The notes beneath the pieces were generated by a model that made no database searches, was not told where the DNA came from, and saw nothing but the letters and a program-made list of their open reading frames with translations. Below are positions 26,361-33,508 of a stretch of 64,000 bases of DNA, in pieces. Made by a program: the position numbers and the translations under genes. Location: the NCBI GenBank assembly GCA_024226555.1, contig JAAELO010000214.1, positions 62,001-126,000 on the forward strand. The letters run 5' to 3'. The stretch comes from Desulfobacterales bacterium (GTDB lineage: Bacteria; Desulfobacterota; Desulfobacteria; Desulfobacterales; JAAELO01). Numbering within the stretch: position 1 is the stretch's first letter; the number at the start of each line of letters is the position of its first letter.

Positions 26361-26770
26361 CTACCATATGATATGGGCTGAAATTAAAATCAGAATTATA
26401 AAAAAGCCAATACCTTTGAGAAAAGATGGCGAGAAAATGTTTGATAAAATATCCAGTATAGTTGATTGATTATCTTCCTGAATAAGAATCTGAAGGCCTG
26501 AATTAAAAAATACATGAGAAAAATAAAAAATTTTCTCCCTTTCTGATGTGAGACTGATACCTGCAACACCAAAATCTGTTTTTCCGGCCTTAATAGTGTT
26601 AAGAAGCTCAGGAGTGGAGGATGTTTCGACAAATTTATAATCATAACCTGTAATTGAATTTATTTTTTCCATAGATCAATGCAGAATCCTTTATAGGAAC
26701 TACCTTCTTTCATTACAAAAGGTTTAAACTCTTTTGTTGCAACAACAAGTTTGTCATCTGCCACAGCACT
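26361..26770 (-). pseudogene. N-terminal half of a solute-binding/ligand-gated channel-like receptor gene
   Basis: Reading leftwards from about 26770: DDKLVVATKEFKPFVMKEGS, then GFCIDLW, a one-base frameshift, then MEKINSITGYDYKF, GKTDFGVAGISLTSEREKIF and a transmembrane helix (FLKGIGFFIILILISAHIIW) where the frame stops. This is the first lobe of a family 3 binding domain followed by the first membrane helix of a glutamate-receptor-like channel. The pore and second lobe are missing. The matching C-terminal end lies immediately to the right on the other strand. Confidence 0.75.
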
Positions 26771-26929: not shown

Positions 26930-27123
26930 CATATCCCACTTTGAAAAAGGACAGACAAGTCCCATAATCGTAATAATTTTTTCTAAAAATCCAAATTTAA
27001 TACTCAAAAGCAAATTTATCGCTTTTTATTAAATTTAAAATAAATAAAATCGTTTTAACACATAGTAATTATTGACAATAATAAAGGTGCATATGATAGT
27101 GAAATAGGCCACCCCATTATTTC

Positions 27124-27199: not shown

Positions 27200-28114
27200 A
27201 TGACAATAGGCAAAAATGAATCATTCTTTAATGGACTTGAAATAAAAATCTATTCTGAGATAGATGGGATCAGCGATAAGTATGCTTATAAAATTATGGT
27301 TGATTATGATGATGAAGAGAATGGTCTCACAATTGCTGGTAAATTTAAAGATCTTATGAATGATCCCCAAATTTCAGATATGCAGGCTCTGGTTATTGGT
27401 TCATGGGAGGAAGCATTTGATATGAGTCCGGACGATCTATTTACATCAATAATTGAAAATTCAGATAAACTTCAAAATCTTAAAGCTCTTTTTATTGGTG
27501 AAATGACATTTGAAGAGTGCGAAATGTCATGGATAAATCAGGGAAACTACACCGAAATTCTGAACTCTTTTAAGGGTCTTGAAGTGCTGAGAGTCCGTGG
27601 GGCTAATGGTCTTAAATTAGGATCTGTTAACCACAGGAGCCTTAAAACATTGATTATTGAATCCGGTGGTCTTGATAGCGAAGTTATAATGGATCTCATA
27701 AAAAGTAACCTCCCTTCACTTAAACACCTTGAGCTATGGTTGGGAGTTGAAGACTATGGTTTTAATGGAGATCTGAAAACATTAAAGCCTCTTTTTGATA
27801 ATCCGTTCCCAAATATAACCTATCTTGGAATCAAAAATAGTGAAATAGTGGATAATGTTGCATCTTATCTTGCTAATCATGCAATTCTTGAGAAAATTGA
27901 TACTCTGGATCTATCACTTGGAACAATGACAGATGTTGGTGGAGAAGCACTTCTTTCTGGATCTAAAGTAAACTCACTTAAAAAATTAGACCTTCACCAT
28001 CACTTTATGTCTGCTGGAATGATGAAAAAGCTGACCGGTTTAAGTATTGATGTGGATATTACCAATAAAAATGAAGACGAAGATGACTGGCGTTATGTCT
28101 ATGTCTCGGAGTAG
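27200..28114 (+). CDS. STM4015-family leucine-rich-repeat protein
   Basis: 304 residues. From about residue 90 the protein shows leucine-rich repeats: LQNLKALFIGEMTFEECEMS, GLEVLRVRGANGLKLG, LKTLIIESGGLDSEVIMDL, SLKHLELWLGVED, and KIDTLDLSLGTMTDVGGEAL. There is no signal peptide, so it is cytoplasmic. The gene order and character match the first member of the cluster named after Salmonella STM4015. The function is not known. An LRR protein here might act as a scaffold or recognise a partner protein. First gene of a seven-gene operon. Confidence 0.85.
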   Translation: MTIGKNESFFNGLEIKIYSEIDGISDKYAYKIMVDYDDEENGLTIAGKFKDLMNDPQISDMQALVIGSWEEAFDMSPDDLFTSIIENSDKLQNLKALFIGEMTFEECEMSWINQGNYTEILNSFKGLEVLRVRGANGLKLGSVNHRSLKTLIIESGGLDSEVIMDLIKSNLPSLKHLELWLGVEDYGFNGDLKTLKPLFDNPFPNITYLGIKNSEIVDNVASYLANHAILEKIDTLDLSLGTMTDVGGEALLSGSKVNSLKKLDLHHHFMSAGMMKKLTGLSIDVDITNKNEDEDDWRYVYVSE

Positions 28115-28124
28115 ATTTAATTAA

Positions 28125-29300
28125 ATGAAGTTTCTAATAATTGGTAATCCTGAAAGCAGACGTAGTATTTTGTTTGAATCAGCACTCAGAAAATCGGGTG
28201 TTCAATCTGTGGATATAGTTCCCCACATGGATCTGCTTTCGGGAAAAACCAATCTTTCAAAATATCTGAAACCCGGAGTTATGATTCGGATCGAAACATC
28301 GGGAGAAAATGAAAGAGTTGAACGGGAGCTGATTCGTCTTGGTGCAAGTTCGGAAGATGATATACTCTGTGAAACTCTTACATCAGAAAAGTATGAAAAG
28401 GGCCTGATCCTACATCCACGCCTTTGGTACAAAGGTTTTTCCGAATATCTTCAGAGAATCTATAGCTGTGTTAAAAGTTTTAACTCTACTGTTTGTAAAA
28501 CTGAAGAGGTCAGTTTTATGAATGCACCGGAAGAGATTCTGAAAATGTTCGATAAATCACTTTGTCATAAAATGTTTAGGGAAAATAACATCCGAACGGC
28601 ACAATCACTTGGTAATGTAGCCAGTTACGATGAGCTTCAGAGTAAAATGCTTGAAAAGAAAATATTCAGAGTTTTCATAAAACTCAGGTATTGCGCTGGT
28701 GCTTCCGGCATTGTTGCCTATCAATGGGCATCTGAGCGAAGTCTTGAATCAGCCACAACAACTGTTGAACTTACCCGTAAAAATGGTGAAGTCAAACTCT
28801 ACAACTCTCTCAAAATAAGAAAATATACAAAACAGCAGGATATTAAAGATATTATCAACTGTTTATGCATTGAGCATGTCCATGTTGAGAAGTGGATTCC
28901 CAAAAGTGGAGGAAGTGATAACTGCTTTGACGCCAGATTTGTTGTGATCAATAAAAAAGCATGTCACAGAATTGCACGATTCAGCAGCGGACCCATAACT
29001 AATCTTCACCTTGGAAATCAGCGTAAAGTTGTAGATTCATCATGGATTTCACAATCTATTATAAATGAGATGGAAGACACTGCTGAAAAGGCTGCGAGCC
29101 TTTTTCCAGACTCCTTTTACTCTGGTGTTGACCTCATATTACCAAGAAACAGTACAAAACCTGTAGTAATTGAAATAAATGCTTTCGGTGATCTGCTCAA
29201 TAATGTGGAGTATAAAAAAAGATCAACCCATCAGTATCAGACTGACGAGATATTAAAACTTAGAAACAATATTGTGATACCTGCCTATGAAACATGCTAA
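28125..29300 (+). CDS. STM4014-family ATP-grasp-like protein
   Basis: 391 residues. The N-terminus MKFLIIGNPESRR is a nucleotide- or substrate-binding strand-loop. The central part (VFIKLRYCAGASGIVAYQWA) resembles the ATP-binding lysine and glycine loop of ATP-grasp folds, and the end VVIEINAFGDLLNNV matches the magnesium-binding E-x-N block. ATP-grasp enzymes join a carboxylate to an amine, thiol or other nucleophile through an acyl phosphate. The position after STM4015 and the length fit the STM4014 family. The start is 10 bases after the previous stop. The substrate is unknown. Confidence 0.85.
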   Translation: MKFLIIGNPESRRSILFESALRKSGVQSVDIVPHMDLLSGKTNLSKYLKPGVMIRIETSGENERVERELIRLGASSEDDILCETLTSEKYEKGLILHPRLWYKGFSEYLQRIYSCVKSFNSTVCKTEEVSFMNAPEEILKMFDKSLCHKMFRENNIRTAQSLGNVASYDELQSKMLEKKIFRVFIKLRYCAGASGIVAYQWASERSLESATTTVELTRKNGEVKLYNSLKIRKYTKQQDIKDIINCLCIEHVHVEKWIPKSGGSDNCFDARFVVINKKACHRIARFSSGPITNLHLGNQRKVVDSSWISQSIINEMEDTAEKAASLFPDSFYSGVDLILPRNSTKPVVIEINAFGDLLNNVEYKKRSTHQYQTDEILKLRNNIVIPAYETC

Positions 29301-29973
29301 TCAAATAAAAGCTCTTCTTTTTGATATAGATAATACTTTAGTTAATCGTGACTACGCTTTTACGATGTATATTAAAGACTTTGTAAAAAGAAATCAAAAC
29401 AGTTTCGGAAGTAAATGTTATGACTCTGTGATTGAAGAGATCCTTCAGATAGACGATCGTGGAAGATTTGACAGGTCACTGTTTATTGAGAAAATTCTTG
29501 GTATGTTCCCCGGTTTAAATATGTCCAAAGAGGAGTTTTGGGCCGATCATAAAACACTTCCCGATTTTGTAAGGAATGAATATGAGGTCCAGGAGATGAT
29601 AAAGCGGCTTAAAGAGGATTACAATTTAGCCATTGTTTCAAACGGATCAGGAGATATGCAGAGAATGAAAATGAGATATGCCGGGCTTGAATCTCTTTTT
29701 ACAGAATACTTCATTTCAGGGGAGATCGGCATCGAAAAACCGGATAGTAAAATATTTACAATTGCACTGGACTCTTTAAAATGTCTCCCTGAAGATGCAG
29801 TGATGATTGGTGACGACATGGATCGGGATATCCTTGGAGCAAAAAAGACAGGTATAAAAACTATTATGATCTCAAGTGCTGAAAACAGAAGAAAAAACGC
29901 AGATAAAAATATAGCAGATATAGTGATAGACAATATTCTCGAACTGGAAAAGGTATTACCATGTTTAATATGA
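29287..29973 (+). CDS. HAD-superfamily phosphatase-like hydrolase
   Basis: 228 residues. Motif I is ALLFDIDNTLV (nucleophile D and acid D), motif II lies in IVSNGSG, motif III in KPDSKIF and motif IV in IGDDMDRDILGAKKTG. All catalytic residues are therefore present. A cap domain lies at about residues 20-90. The start overlaps the STM4014 stop by 14 bases, and its own stop overlaps the next gene by 13 bases, so it is translationally coupled. It probably dephosphorylates an intermediate of this operon's pathway. It is not one of the five genes that give the cluster its name. Confidence 0.9.
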   Translation: MKHANQIKALLFDIDNTLVNRDYAFTMYIKDFVKRNQNSFGSKCYDSVIEEILQIDDRGRFDRSLFIEKILGMFPGLNMSKEEFWADHKTLPDFVRNEYEVQEMIKRLKEDYNLAIVSNGSGDMQRMKMRYAGLESLFTEYFISGEIGIEKPDSKIFTIALDSLKCLPEDAVMIGDDMDRDILGAKKTGIKTIMISSAENRRKNADKNIADIVIDNILELEKVLPCLI

Positions 29974-30779
29974 ATGAGATTGTGGGAAAAAACGATATTC
30001 TGTTTATCACATTCGATACCCTGAGATATGATGTGGCAATTAATGAGATGGAATCAGGCAGAACTCCAAACCTTAAGAAACTACTTCCTGATTCCTGGGA
30101 AAAGAGGCATTCACCGGGTAATTTCACATATGCTTCCCATCATGCATTCTTTGCAGGTTTTCTTCCAACTCCTGTAAATCCGGGAATTCATGACCGTCTG
30201 TTTGCTGTTTCATTTCCTGGAAGTGAATCAATAAGCCCGAATACCTGTGTTTTTAAAACTTCCTCTATTGTTTCAGGTCTTGCAGGCGAGGGCTATCACA
30301 CAGCCTGTGTTGGTGGTGTTGGCTTTTTTAACAAAATGAGTCCTTTGGGATCTGTGTTTCCAGATATGTTCCATGAAAGTCACTGGCACAGATCATATGG
30401 TGTAACCGATCCCGATTCAACAGAAAATCAGGTAAAATGTGCGCTTGATATAATTGAAAAACGGAACCATAGCAATCCCGAACAGAAGTTATTTCTCTTT
30501 ATAAACATATCTGCACTTCACCAACCCAACTGCTTTTATCTGGATAATGCAAAAAAAGATACTCTCGAAAGTCACGGTGCAGCTCTTGGATATGTGGACA
30601 GTAAACTTCCGGAACTGGTAAGCGCATTTGAAAATCGAGGTGATACTTTCATGATTTTAAGTTCTGATCATGGAACCACATATGGAGAAGATGGTTATAC
30701 AGGACACAGGTTAAGCCATGAAAATGTCTGGGATGTTCCATTTGCATCGTTCCTTCACAAAGGAAATAGCCATGATTAA
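29961..30779 (+). CDS. STM4013-family sulfatase-fold hydrolase
   Basis: 272 residues of the alkaline phosphatase/sulfatase superfamily. ILFITFDTLRYDVA near the start holds the metal-binding aspartates, GNFTYASHHAFFAG has the nucleophile region and SSDHGTTYGEDGYTGHRLSH gives the C-terminal metal ligands (DH, H). No sulfatase C-x-P-x-R motif is seen, so phosphate or phosphonate ester hydrolysis or transfer is as likely as sulfate. It is cytoplasmic. The stop overlaps the start of the radical SAM gene by 8 bases. It belongs to the STM4013/SEN3800 family by neighbours and sequence style. Substrate unknown. Confidence 0.85.
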   Translation: MFNMNEIVGKNDILFITFDTLRYDVAINEMESGRTPNLKKLLPDSWEKRHSPGNFTYASHHAFFAGFLPTPVNPGIHDRLFAVSFPGSESISPNTCVFKTSSIVSGLAGEGYHTACVGGVGFFNKMSPLGSVFPDMFHESHWHRSYGVTDPDSTENQVKCALDIIEKRNHSNPEQKLFLFINISALHQPNCFYLDNAKKDTLESHGAALGYVDSKLPELVSAFENRGDTFMILSSDHGTTYGEDGYTGHRLSHENVWDVPFASFLHKGNSHD

Positions 30780-32073
30780 CTTTGAAGAAAAGACTCCTTA
30801 TCAGGGTTACTTATATTCCTACCCCCATAAAACGGCATACAGAGAGTTTGAAACCCCTATATCTCTTAAAAAAGCATGGGGTGATGAAAACAGATCTGCT
30901 CTTTTTTTCTACCTCCACATACCTTTTTGTGAAAGTAAATGTGGTTTCTGCAATCTTTTCTCTGTTTGCAGACCGGATCAGGATATTGTGGATAGATATC
31001 TTGGGGCCGTTGAAAAGCAGATAGAAGCTGTCAAAGAGTACCTTGGTGAATTCAGATGTGCGCGCTATGCGATCGGAGGTGGAACGCCAAGCTATCTTAA
31101 TGAAAAGCAGCTTGAAAAAACTCTCGATATGTTTGGAGACCTCACTGGCTTTAACTCTCAAATTCCAGGATCATTCGAAACATCACCTGGAACTCTTACA
31201 AAGGAGAAACTTAAGCTTCTAAAAGAGCGAGGAGTTCAAAGAATAAGCATCGGTGTTCAGAGTTTTAATAAGTCTGAGTCTTCATCAATTTCACGCTCAC
31301 AAAATATTGAAACAGTACATGCATCACTTGAAGCAATTTCAAACTTTAATTTTAAAACACTCAATATTGACCTGATATATGGAATTTCCGGTCAAACATC
31401 AGAGTCTTTTTGTGACTCAATAAAAACAGCACTTAAATATCAACCGGAAGAACTCTATCTGTATCCGCTATATATTAGAGCTTTAACTAAAATAGAAGGA
31501 AAGAAAAGATCCGATGAAGCCCTTCTTATATATGAATCTGGAAGAGATTTTCTTTTTGAAAATGGTTACAATCAAAATTCCATGCGGATGTTTGTAAAAA
31601 ACGATTCCAAAAACGAGACAAGCCCAAACTACTGCTGCCAGGAGGATGGCATGATTGGCCTTGGAACAGGAGCTCGTTCCTACACAATGAACATGCACTA
31701 CTCCACACCATATGCAATAGGTAAAAAAGCATCCCTTGATATTATTGAAAGTTTTATAAACAGATCATCAAGTGATCATTCAAATACCGAATTTGGCTTT
31801 AAGCTTGATGAAGCAGAACAGAAAAGAAGATATTTAATAAAGTCAATTCTCCAGACAAGTGGTCTTAATAAATTACAATATAAGAGTTTTTTCAATTCTG
31901 ATTTTATGGATGATTTTCCCGAACTTTCAAATCTTACTGAAAAAGGATTTGCAGAAATTTCAAATGGTACATTGAAGCTCACACAAACCGGAATTGCATA
32001 TTCAGATGCAATAGGCCCTGCTCTTATTTCAGGTAGTGTTCGTGCTAAAATGAAAGAGTATGAAAATATATGA
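30772..32073 (+). CDS. STM4012-family radical SAM enzyme (HemN-like)
   Basis: 433 residues from the ATG at 30772, which has AAAGGA upstream. An upstream in-frame start at 30718 would lie deep in the previous gene. The cluster-binding motif is CESKCGFC (C-x3-C-x2-C) near residue 53. AIGGGTPSYLNEKQLEKTL and GVQRISIGVQSFN follow, as in the coproporphyrinogen dehydrogenase/HemW family. The C-terminus has a HemN-like helical domain. It uses S-adenosylmethionine for radical chemistry on an unknown substrate. A four-base ATGA overlap links it to the next radical SAM gene. Confidence 0.9.
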   Translation: MINFEEKTPYQGYLYSYPHKTAYREFETPISLKKAWGDENRSALFFYLHIPFCESKCGFCNLFSVCRPDQDIVDRYLGAVEKQIEAVKEYLGEFRCARYAIGGGTPSYLNEKQLEKTLDMFGDLTGFNSQIPGSFETSPGTLTKEKLKLLKERGVQRISIGVQSFNKSESSSISRSQNIETVHASLEAISNFNFKTLNIDLIYGISGQTSESFCDSIKTALKYQPEELYLYPLYIRALTKIEGKKRSDEALLIYESGRDFLFENGYNQNSMRMFVKNDSKNETSPNYCCQEDGMIGLGTGARSYTMNMHYSTPYAIGKKASLDIIESFINRSSSDHSNTEFGFKLDEAEQKRRYLIKSILQTSGLNKLQYKSFFNSDFMDDFPELSNLTEKGFAEISNGTLKLTQTGIAYSDAIGPALISGSVRAKMKEYENI

Positions 32074-33008
32074 GATACAAAGTCTTATACAGAGGCACTC
32101 TTTCAAGCTGCAATTACTCCTGTGAATATTGCCCGTTTGCACAAACAAAAGCATCTGAAAAAGCTATGCAGGAAGACAAAGCTGCACTGGAAAGATTTAC
32201 TAAATGGCTGGATTCCCAGAACAATCAATTTGAAATATTCTTCACTCCAAGAGGAGAAGCTCTGATGTATCCATATTACAGAAAAGTCATTTCAGAACTT
32301 TCATGGAAAAATAACATTGATAAGGTAGTAATACAGACCAATTTTTCCTGTGATACAAAATGGATTGAAAGCTGTAATGTTAATAAAACAGCTTTCTGGT
32401 TAACCTATCACCCGGAGGAAGTAAAAGCTGAATCTTTTGCAAACAAATGCATTAAATTAAACAGGGTTGGTATTAAGTATAGCGTGGGAGTTGTGGGTAT
32501 AAAAGAGCATTTCGATTCAATCAGAAAAATGAGAGTTCTCCTGCCAGATGATACATACCTGTGGATCAATGCATTCAAAAGGTCAGATGATTACTACAAC
32601 GGAAAAGAGATTGAATTTCTTGTTTCAATTGACCCACTTTTCAGGCACAACCTTGAATATTATGATAGTTTTGGAAAGTCCTGCAAAACTGGATATGATG
32701 TTTTTGCTGTTGAAGGAAACGGAGATATCAAACGTTGTCATTTCTCTGAAGAGCTCCTTGGCAATATCTCCTCACATACTCTCGATCAGACATCAAAGAA
32801 AAGGCCTTGTACAACCCAGACATGCCACTGTCATATTGGTTATGTCTATCTTGAACATTTGGAATTGAATAAAGTTTATGGGAATGGGATTCTTGAGAGA
32901 ATCCCCAAAGCTGAAGAAAAAATAGTTTTGCAAAGGGCAAATAAAGAGGTTATTAAAGATAAACTCAAAATTAAAGATGCTCATGACTTTGAAAAGGACA
33001 AATTATGA
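32070..33008 (+). CDS. STM4011-family radical SAM enzyme with SPASM-like C-terminus
   Basis: 312 residues. SSCNYSCEYCPFA near residue 12 supplies C-x3-C-x2-C for the [4Fe-4S] cluster. EIFFTPRGEALMYP follows in the usual place. The C-terminus has further cysteines (KSCKTGYDVF, IKRCHFSEELLGNISS, PCTTQTCHCHIGY), suggesting an auxiliary cluster as in SPASM or twitch domains. ATGA overlaps connect it to both neighbours. A decayed partial copy of this gene lies at 34547-34960. Together with STM4012 it gives the operon two radical SAM steps. Confidence 0.9.
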   Translation: MRYKVLYRGTLSSCNYSCEYCPFAQTKASEKAMQEDKAALERFTKWLDSQNNQFEIFFTPRGEALMYPYYRKVISELSWKNNIDKVVIQTNFSCDTKWIESCNVNKTAFWLTYHPEEVKAESFANKCIKLNRVGIKYSVGVVGIKEHFDSIRKMRVLLPDDTYLWINAFKRSDDYYNGKEIEFLVSIDPLFRHNLEYYDSFGKSCKTGYDVFAVEGNGDIKRCHFSEELLGNISSHTLDQTSKKRPCTTQTCHCHIGYVYLEHLELNKVYGNGILERIPKAEEKIVLQRANKEVIKDKLKIKDAHDFEKDKL

Positions 33009-33508
33009 AAAAAATCATCTTAATCTTTATTCTTGTATTGTTAGTATTGGTTGTTTCAAGAAAACTATTTAATGATTATTCTTTAAATAAGGAGATCGAG
33101 ATGCGTGAAGAATACGCATCAATTCATGAGAAAAAAATTGCGGCAGTAAAAGCCAAATTTGAAAAAGAACTTACAGAAAAAGTACGTCAAGAAGGATACG
33201 AAGGCTATATTGAAGGAATAGCTAATTTTATTGATAGTAGAATGAATATAAAAAATGCAGAAAAATATTTAATATGGAATTCAGATGATGATATTTATGA
33301 GTGGATTTGTACAGGTATTGATGAATATTATGTAGTATACAAATACACTGGTGAACATAAAATATTTGCTTTGGAAGCACAAGAATCACGTATTTACAAA
33401 CCTAAAAGTGTTTTATATGATCGATTTTTTGAATTTACAGGTACTGAAGAACTTGTTTTTGGTGATGGAAAATCTGTAGAGGTTGTTGTTCTTAAAAGTG
33501 TAAAATAA
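33005..33508 (+). CDS. Small membrane-anchored protein at the end of the STM4011-4015 operon
   Basis: 167 residues. The N-terminus (MKKIILIFILVLLVLVVSRKLF) is one transmembrane helix without a clear cleavage site. A charged coiled-coil-like segment (EKKIAAVKAKFEKELTEKV) and a soluble tail with IWNSDDDIYEWICTGID follow. No family is recognised. The start shares an ATGA with the STM4011 stop, so it is coupled to the operon. It could be a sensor, an anchor for the complex or a passenger gene. A mobile element starts 6 bases after its stop. Confidence 0.7.
   Translation: MKKIILIFILVLLVLVVSRKLFNDYSLNKEIEMREEYASIHEKKIAAVKAKFEKELTEKVRQEGYEGYIEGIANFIDSRMNIKNAEKYLIWNSDDDIYEWICTGIDEYYVVYKYTGEHKIFALEAQESRIYKPKSVLYDRFFEFTGTEELVFGDGKSVEVVVLKSVK

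Follow-up and report, generated by a model that had tools for sequence, protein, structure and literature searches.

We propose here a likely substrate, down to the exact residue, for five protein families without assigned function. These families span eight or more bacterial phyla and are found in about 3% of the complete genomes of E. coli. The new element of this analysis is the C-terminal glutamate tail of the leucine-rich repeat (LRR) protein STM4015, which is the likely substrate site of the STM4011-STM4015 operon. In the reading that we favour, and to which we give somewhat better than even chances, the ATP-grasp enzyme STM4014 ligates a group onto this glutamate and STM4011, STM4012 and STM4013, with or without a HAD phosphatase, remodel that group. 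The operon was analysed in a 64,000-nucleotide stretch of DNA from a Desulfobacterales bacterium, hereafter the window.

Seven open reading frames lie head to tail on the + strand between positions 27200 and 33508 of the window (Table 1), the part from 27200 to 33008 covering STM4015 to STM4011 and including the HAD gene. Their coordinates agree with the arrangement and spacings described in the sequence-only reading, namely a 10-base gap followed by overlaps of 14, 13, 8, 4 and 4 bases, the overlap of 8 presupposing that STM4012 starts at the ATG at 30772. A protein was assigned to a family when its score exceeded the curated NCBIfam cut-off. By this profile search, which the sequence-only reading had suggested as a check, all five STM401x proteins were placed in the families it had named and, their genes being adjacent, the window holds a member of the STM4011-STM4015 cluster. 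That the genes form a single operon is borne out by the gene-neighbour order, whose conservation across phyla rules out a chance arrangement. The pathway was also rightly called uncharacterised: a literature search found no paper on the function of the STM401x genes, and each paper naming STM4010, STM4013 or STM4015 mentions it a single time, two of these mentions being table entries. The promoter placed before the operon fared less well. A promoter-like TTGACA-17-GATAGT does exist at 27072-27100, with a 10/12 match to the consensus, but such sites are no commoner than expected by chance (32 found vs 28.2+/-5.2), and it was not retained. Just upstream of the operon, a truncated ORF resembling a solute-binding protein (SBP_bac_3, with a weak ligand-gated-channel match) at 26361-26672 on the - strand looks like a gene remnant.

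Table 1. Features of the STM401x operon (window coordinates) and the unlinked STM4015 paralogue of the same genome
Feature	Position	Strand	Remarks
STM4015 family LRR protein, 304 aa, pI 4.5	27200..28114	+	NF038076 312.7 bits vs 275
STM4015 acidic linker and tail NKNEDEDDW-RYVYVSE	28064..28111	+	Glu304 codon 28109-28111; proposed modification site
STM4014 family ATP-grasp ligase, 391 aa, pI 8.8	28125..29300	+	NF038074 349.5 vs 175
HAD-IA phosphatase-like accessory enzyme	29287..29973	+	Pfam HAD_2 E 7e-24
STM4013 alkaline-phosphatase-superfamily hydrolase/transferase	29961..30779	+	NF038075 404.1 vs 250
STM4012 HemN-like radical SAM enzyme, 433 aa, CxxxCxxC	30772..32073	+	NF006067 556.5 vs 380
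STM4011 radical SAM enzyme, pI 8.3	32070..33008	+	NF038073 362.7 vs 200
167-aa membrane-anchored ORF	33005..33508	+	no family match (NCBIfam, Pfam)
Tail-less STM4015 paralogue, window's genome	G000:C380:17285-18079 (L003:1462-2421)	-	

A single scan across 84,980 species genomes yielded 80 loci. They were chosen by an internal STM4015 motif and not by the tail, so that the conservation of the tail is not a selection artefact, although the score ranking may slightly favour it. The loci span Bacillota, Pseudomonadota, Bacteroidota, Planctomycetota, Chloroflexota, Cyanobacteriota/Melainabacteria, Acidobacteriota (Blastocatellia) and Actinomycetota, and plasmid records added Deinococcota. Across phyla, the order 4015-4014-(HAD)-4013-4012-4011 is nearly universal in the surveyed loci. 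STM4015 and STM4014 remain paired in two loci (L079 and L160) where 4013-4012 sit on the opposite strand, as does 4011 in L079. Among 297 sampled genomes of the window's phylum, STM4015 was found in one, the window's own (a 7.7-Mb assembly), which makes the operon a sporadic one in that phylum. A quick tree of STM4012 places the copy from the window next to the HAD-bearing operons of Undibacterium and Rhodocyclaceae, on a long branch that calls for caution.

The E. coli frequency is that of the STM4012 gene, present in 154 of 5,426 complete genomes. In one such genome (NZ_LR778152.1, 3249914-3260990) ompL and typA flank the complete operon, STM4011 is followed by a HAD-IIB gene, and STM4015 ends in ...MHPMFTE. 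A Salmonella record labelled as a plasmid (NZ_CP019203.1) bears a chromosomal-looking yihS-ompL-STM401x-typA-glnA segment and is either a large integration or a mislabelled or misassembled record. On a Bacteroides finegoldii plasmid (L009:9823-10204), STM4013 and STM4012 are reduced to short fragments while 4015, 4014 and 4011 remain.

The AF2 model of STM4015 (pLDDT 90.7) has as its nearest solved structure 2RA8 (TMq 0.84), a structural-genomics entry from Bacteroides fragilis (Q64V53) that belongs to the same family (HMM E 7.5e-82) and on which a literature search found no paper. In divergent members, an acidic linker that varies in length connects the LRR body to the motif R-[YF]-x-x-V-[STGA]-E, with which the protein ends. 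Once duplicates were removed, glutamate was the last residue of 143 of the 147 STM4015 proteins, and of 38 of the 41 representatives at less than 60% identity; by the same comparison, the last residue is unconserved in STM4014, STM4013, STM4012, STM4011 and HAD. The linker is 48% acidic vs 16% in the body, and the charges of the partners are complementary, with a median pI of 4.45 for STM4015, 8.35 for STM4014 and 8.25 for STM4011.

There are four exceptions to the terminal glutamate. One is a contig-end artefact (L131), another a STM4015 copy with an internal stop (L177), and a third ends in ...AVTV in a genome without STM4014 (L063). The last is a diverged, unlinked paralogue in the window's own genome (Table 1), ending in ...LMPMLCY, in which the tail is absent and which has no operon gene adjoining it within the 3.8 kb examined. 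A link between the absence of STM4014 and the absence of the tail was considered and abandoned, as it came down to the single case of L063 once L131 had been dropped. Scanning the window's own genome with the tail motif gave 27 matches vs 18 in a reversed control, which is chance level, so that no further tail-bearing substrates are claimed.

STM4015 also occurs in tandem arrays, with five copies in one locus (L134) and three in each of L135, L136 and L137, a single 4014-4013-4012-4011 set lying downstream of up to five STM4015 genes. The tail is kept in the copies of these arrays as well as in unlinked paralogues (L144, L146, L148, L150 and L152). The LRR protein had been seen as a possible recognition module; its near-invariant free C-terminal Glu and the arrays placed before one enzyme set make it likelier to be a substrate or carrier.

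The predicted model of STM4014 (pLDDT 92.2, pTM 0.91) was compared with solved structures by VIA-align. The best match was ArgX with LysW (3vpb; Z 23.6, rmsd 2.7, 270 aligned), followed by LysX/ArgX with LysW-gamma-AAA (5k2m; Z 22.8) and RimK (7qys, 5zct and 5zk6; Z 22.6-22.8). We counted rows within 1 Z as ties, and other ATP-grasp ligases come within about 2 Z of the best (glutathione synthetase 21.9, Ddl 21.2), so that these near-tied values make the LysX/RimK match a lean and not a proof. Sequence profiles likewise put LysX and RimK first, with a common [ST]N(LH) motif. The conserved residues K144, K186, D336, N352 and T292-N293 supply the Lys pair, the metal Asp/Asn and the [ST]N motif of a RimK-like ATP-grasp enzyme. 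STM4014 is nevertheless a member of neither family, scoring 29.4 against the RimK family TIGR00768 (cut-off 143.4) and 15.1 bits against the LysX/ArgX family TIGR02144 (cut-off 275.6). Its pairing with STM4015 is obligate: of 247 actinomycete genomes 30 have STM4014, all 30 together with STM4015, and the sole one with STM4015 but without STM4014 is the contig-end case L131. A point against the favoured reading is one Obscuribacterales MAG, possibly incomplete, that holds a tailed STM4015 but in which STM4014 was not detected. We propose STM4014 as the ligase for the C-terminal Glu of STM4015.

For STM4013, the invariant residues are D19, T56, D236, H237 and H249. T56 belongs to a T56-Y-A-S-H motif, its Thr being invariant in 25/25 aligned members, whereas sulfatases have C/S-x-P/A-x-R. 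It was assigned by spacing, 37 residues after the metal residue D19 and 10 before a conserved Gly, which is the spacing of the nucleophile position in sulfatases. An invariant Thr there, in place of Cys or Ser, excludes formylglycine-dependent hydrolysis of sulfate esters for this sulfatase-fold protein, for which phosphate/sulfate ester hydrolysis had first been suggested. Judging from this position, STM4013 is more likely a Thr-nucleophile phosphohydrolase or phosphotransferase.

The nearest solved relatives of STM4012 are HemN (1olt, E 1e-32) and then the radical SAM methyltransferase NocN, so that decarboxylation and methyl transfer are both conceivable for it; against the HemN family TIGR00538 it scores 177.9 vs 324.95, below the cut-off, and its architecture alone is HemN-like. 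STM4011 gave no match in a search against solved structures. Besides the CxxxCxxC cysteines C14, C18 and C21 it conserves five more towards the C-terminus (C205, C223, C247, C252 and C254), which suggest an auxiliary cluster, and its matches to SPASM-type models are sub-threshold.

The sequence-only reading had identified the HAD phosphatase correctly, as a HAD-IA phosphatase-like enzyme (conserved residues D13, D15, T17, K151 and D181; the best named subfamily, TIGR02253, scores below its cut-off), but had taken it for a local addition, like the 167-residue membrane protein. A survey of neighbourhoods separates these two accessories. Besides the window, the HAD gene recurs with the cluster at the 4014/4013 junction in 13 loci, which come from Pseudomonadota, Bacteroidota and Planctomycetota. 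Its presence is clustered on the STM4012 tree (4 changes vs a shuffled mean of 11.3). In E. coli and Salmonella, the gene immediately following 4011 codes for an unrelated HAD-IIB protein, so a phosphatase was recruited at least twice. The 167-residue gene, in turn, has no relatives in about 90 STM401x loci nor elsewhere in its own genome, where it is single copy. Found in the window only, it probably does not belong to the STM401x system and would be co-transcribed by virtue of its position.

A DUF6745 repeat protein adjoins the operon in 14 loci (L004:13100-14421, L006:13011-14308, L008:6530-7855 and 11 more). Most of these copies end in YxP(L/A)xE(T/A), and 12 of the 14 loci also hold a ~100-aa partner ending in QREY...VxD. 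The DUF6745 protein is possibly a second tail-bearing substrate. A mutual exclusion between HAD and DUF6745 (0 shared loci, 14 loci each) was set aside, the counts being too small to claim it.

In the mechanism that we propose, STM4015 would be the substrate or carrier, its LRR body presenting a flexible acidic tail with a free terminal Glu. The basic STM4014, of LysX/ArgX/RimK type, would phosphorylate a carboxylate of this residue and couple the activated Glu to an amine, probably that of an amino acid. STM4011 and STM4012 may alter the tethered group and/or the adjacent tail residues, and STM4013 may add or remove a phosphoester through its Thr nucleophile, the HAD phosphatase joining in some lineages. 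That the tail is modified, what is added to it, in which order the enzymes act and whether the product stays attached to the protein are inferences. A lasting modification of the STM4015 protein is slightly favoured, because the operon has no peptidase and STM4015 paralogues multiply. The initial guess of a modified peptide or small molecule is judged right, and the sequence-only interpretation as a whole partly supported. More tentatively, and with chances that we put below even, the operon may encode a system for C-terminal modification that spans phyla and has not been described before. In it, LRR proteins that share the seven-residue tail would be turned into functional molecules by the ligase of RimK/LysX type, both radical SAM enzymes and the hydrolase with its Thr nucleophile, all acting on the terminal Glu, and the outcome would be a protein-borne cofactor or reactive group. 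We found no precedent for radical SAM chemistry on a STM4015-type tail.

Ligation to the terminal Glu could also have another end. STM4015 might be a true LysW-like carrier, on which a building block is finished and then freed by an unlinked amidase as a small molecule. This outcome, which we consider unlikely, shares the ligation step and is a portion of the likelihood given to the favoured reading, not an addition to it. The acidic carrier, the basic ligase and the C-terminal Glu speak for it, but the operon is without a release enzyme and several paralogous carriers occur per genome. Nearer to the sequence-only reading, the tail might be a docking or assembly peptide through which STM4015, as scaffold or sensor, gathers enzymes that act on some other, small-molecule substrate. 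Binding of partners is usual for LRR folds, and most of the seven tail residues are conserved as in a docking motif; such a motif, however, would not have to coincide with the end of the chain and finish in a near-invariant Glu, the enzymes that STM4014 matches best in structure have a C-terminal Glu as their target, and one enzyme set with five scaffolds would be odd. We regard this explanation as unlikely.

The tandem STM4015 genes are also precursor-like, and Foldseek with the STM4014 model returns the graspetide ligases PsnB and MdnC with their precursors. One could thus imagine a graspetide or RiPP-like pathway in which STM4014 forms an intramolecular ester or amide cross-link within the tail, C-C or thioether links are introduced by the radical SAM enzymes, and cleavage then frees the tail as the product. 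Yet no Ser/Thr/Lys or Cys fit for cross-linking is invariant in the tail of the 147 proteins, no peptidase or exporter recurs with the operon across genera among the matches listed, and VIA-align puts LysX/RimK first, so that we hold such a pathway to be quite improbable.

The favoured reading, ligation to the terminal Glu of STM4015, can be set against known systems. Carriers of the LysW type have a C-terminal Glu whose gamma-carboxylate is activated, and their binding to basic enzymes is electrostatic (PMC9303977); the LysX/ArgX and RimK ligases have as their target the C-terminal Glu of LysW or the C-terminus of S6 (PMC9303977, PMC4741518). STM4015 has the free C-terminal Glu and the acidic character of such a carrier, and its pair with STM4014 resembles LysW-LysX/ArgX in that the ligase is basic and shares the ATP-grasp fold (3vpb, 5k2m). 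However, LysW is a small protein and STM4015 a ~300-aa LRR protein, for which none of the tests made, by profile and by structure comparison, indicates homology to LysW. The STM401x operon lacks the kinase, reductase, aminotransferase and peptidase steps of the LysW system and has radical SAM enzymes. With RimK, which extends the C-terminus of the protein S6 (RpsF), STM4014 shares the ATP-grasp ligase fold and the [ST]NLH motif, the dedicated LRR partner and the radical SAM enzymes being on the STM4014 side. The Salmonella STM4011-STM4015 locus has the same five families in the same gene order as the window, which differs from Salmonella and E. coli by its internal HAD-IA gene and its private terminal 167-aa ORF, where these have HAD-IIB after STM4011. 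By analogy, the system probably works like LysW and RimK while belonging to neither family and, if so, an LRR-scaffolded case would join the short list of C-terminal-Glu chemistries that these two represent.
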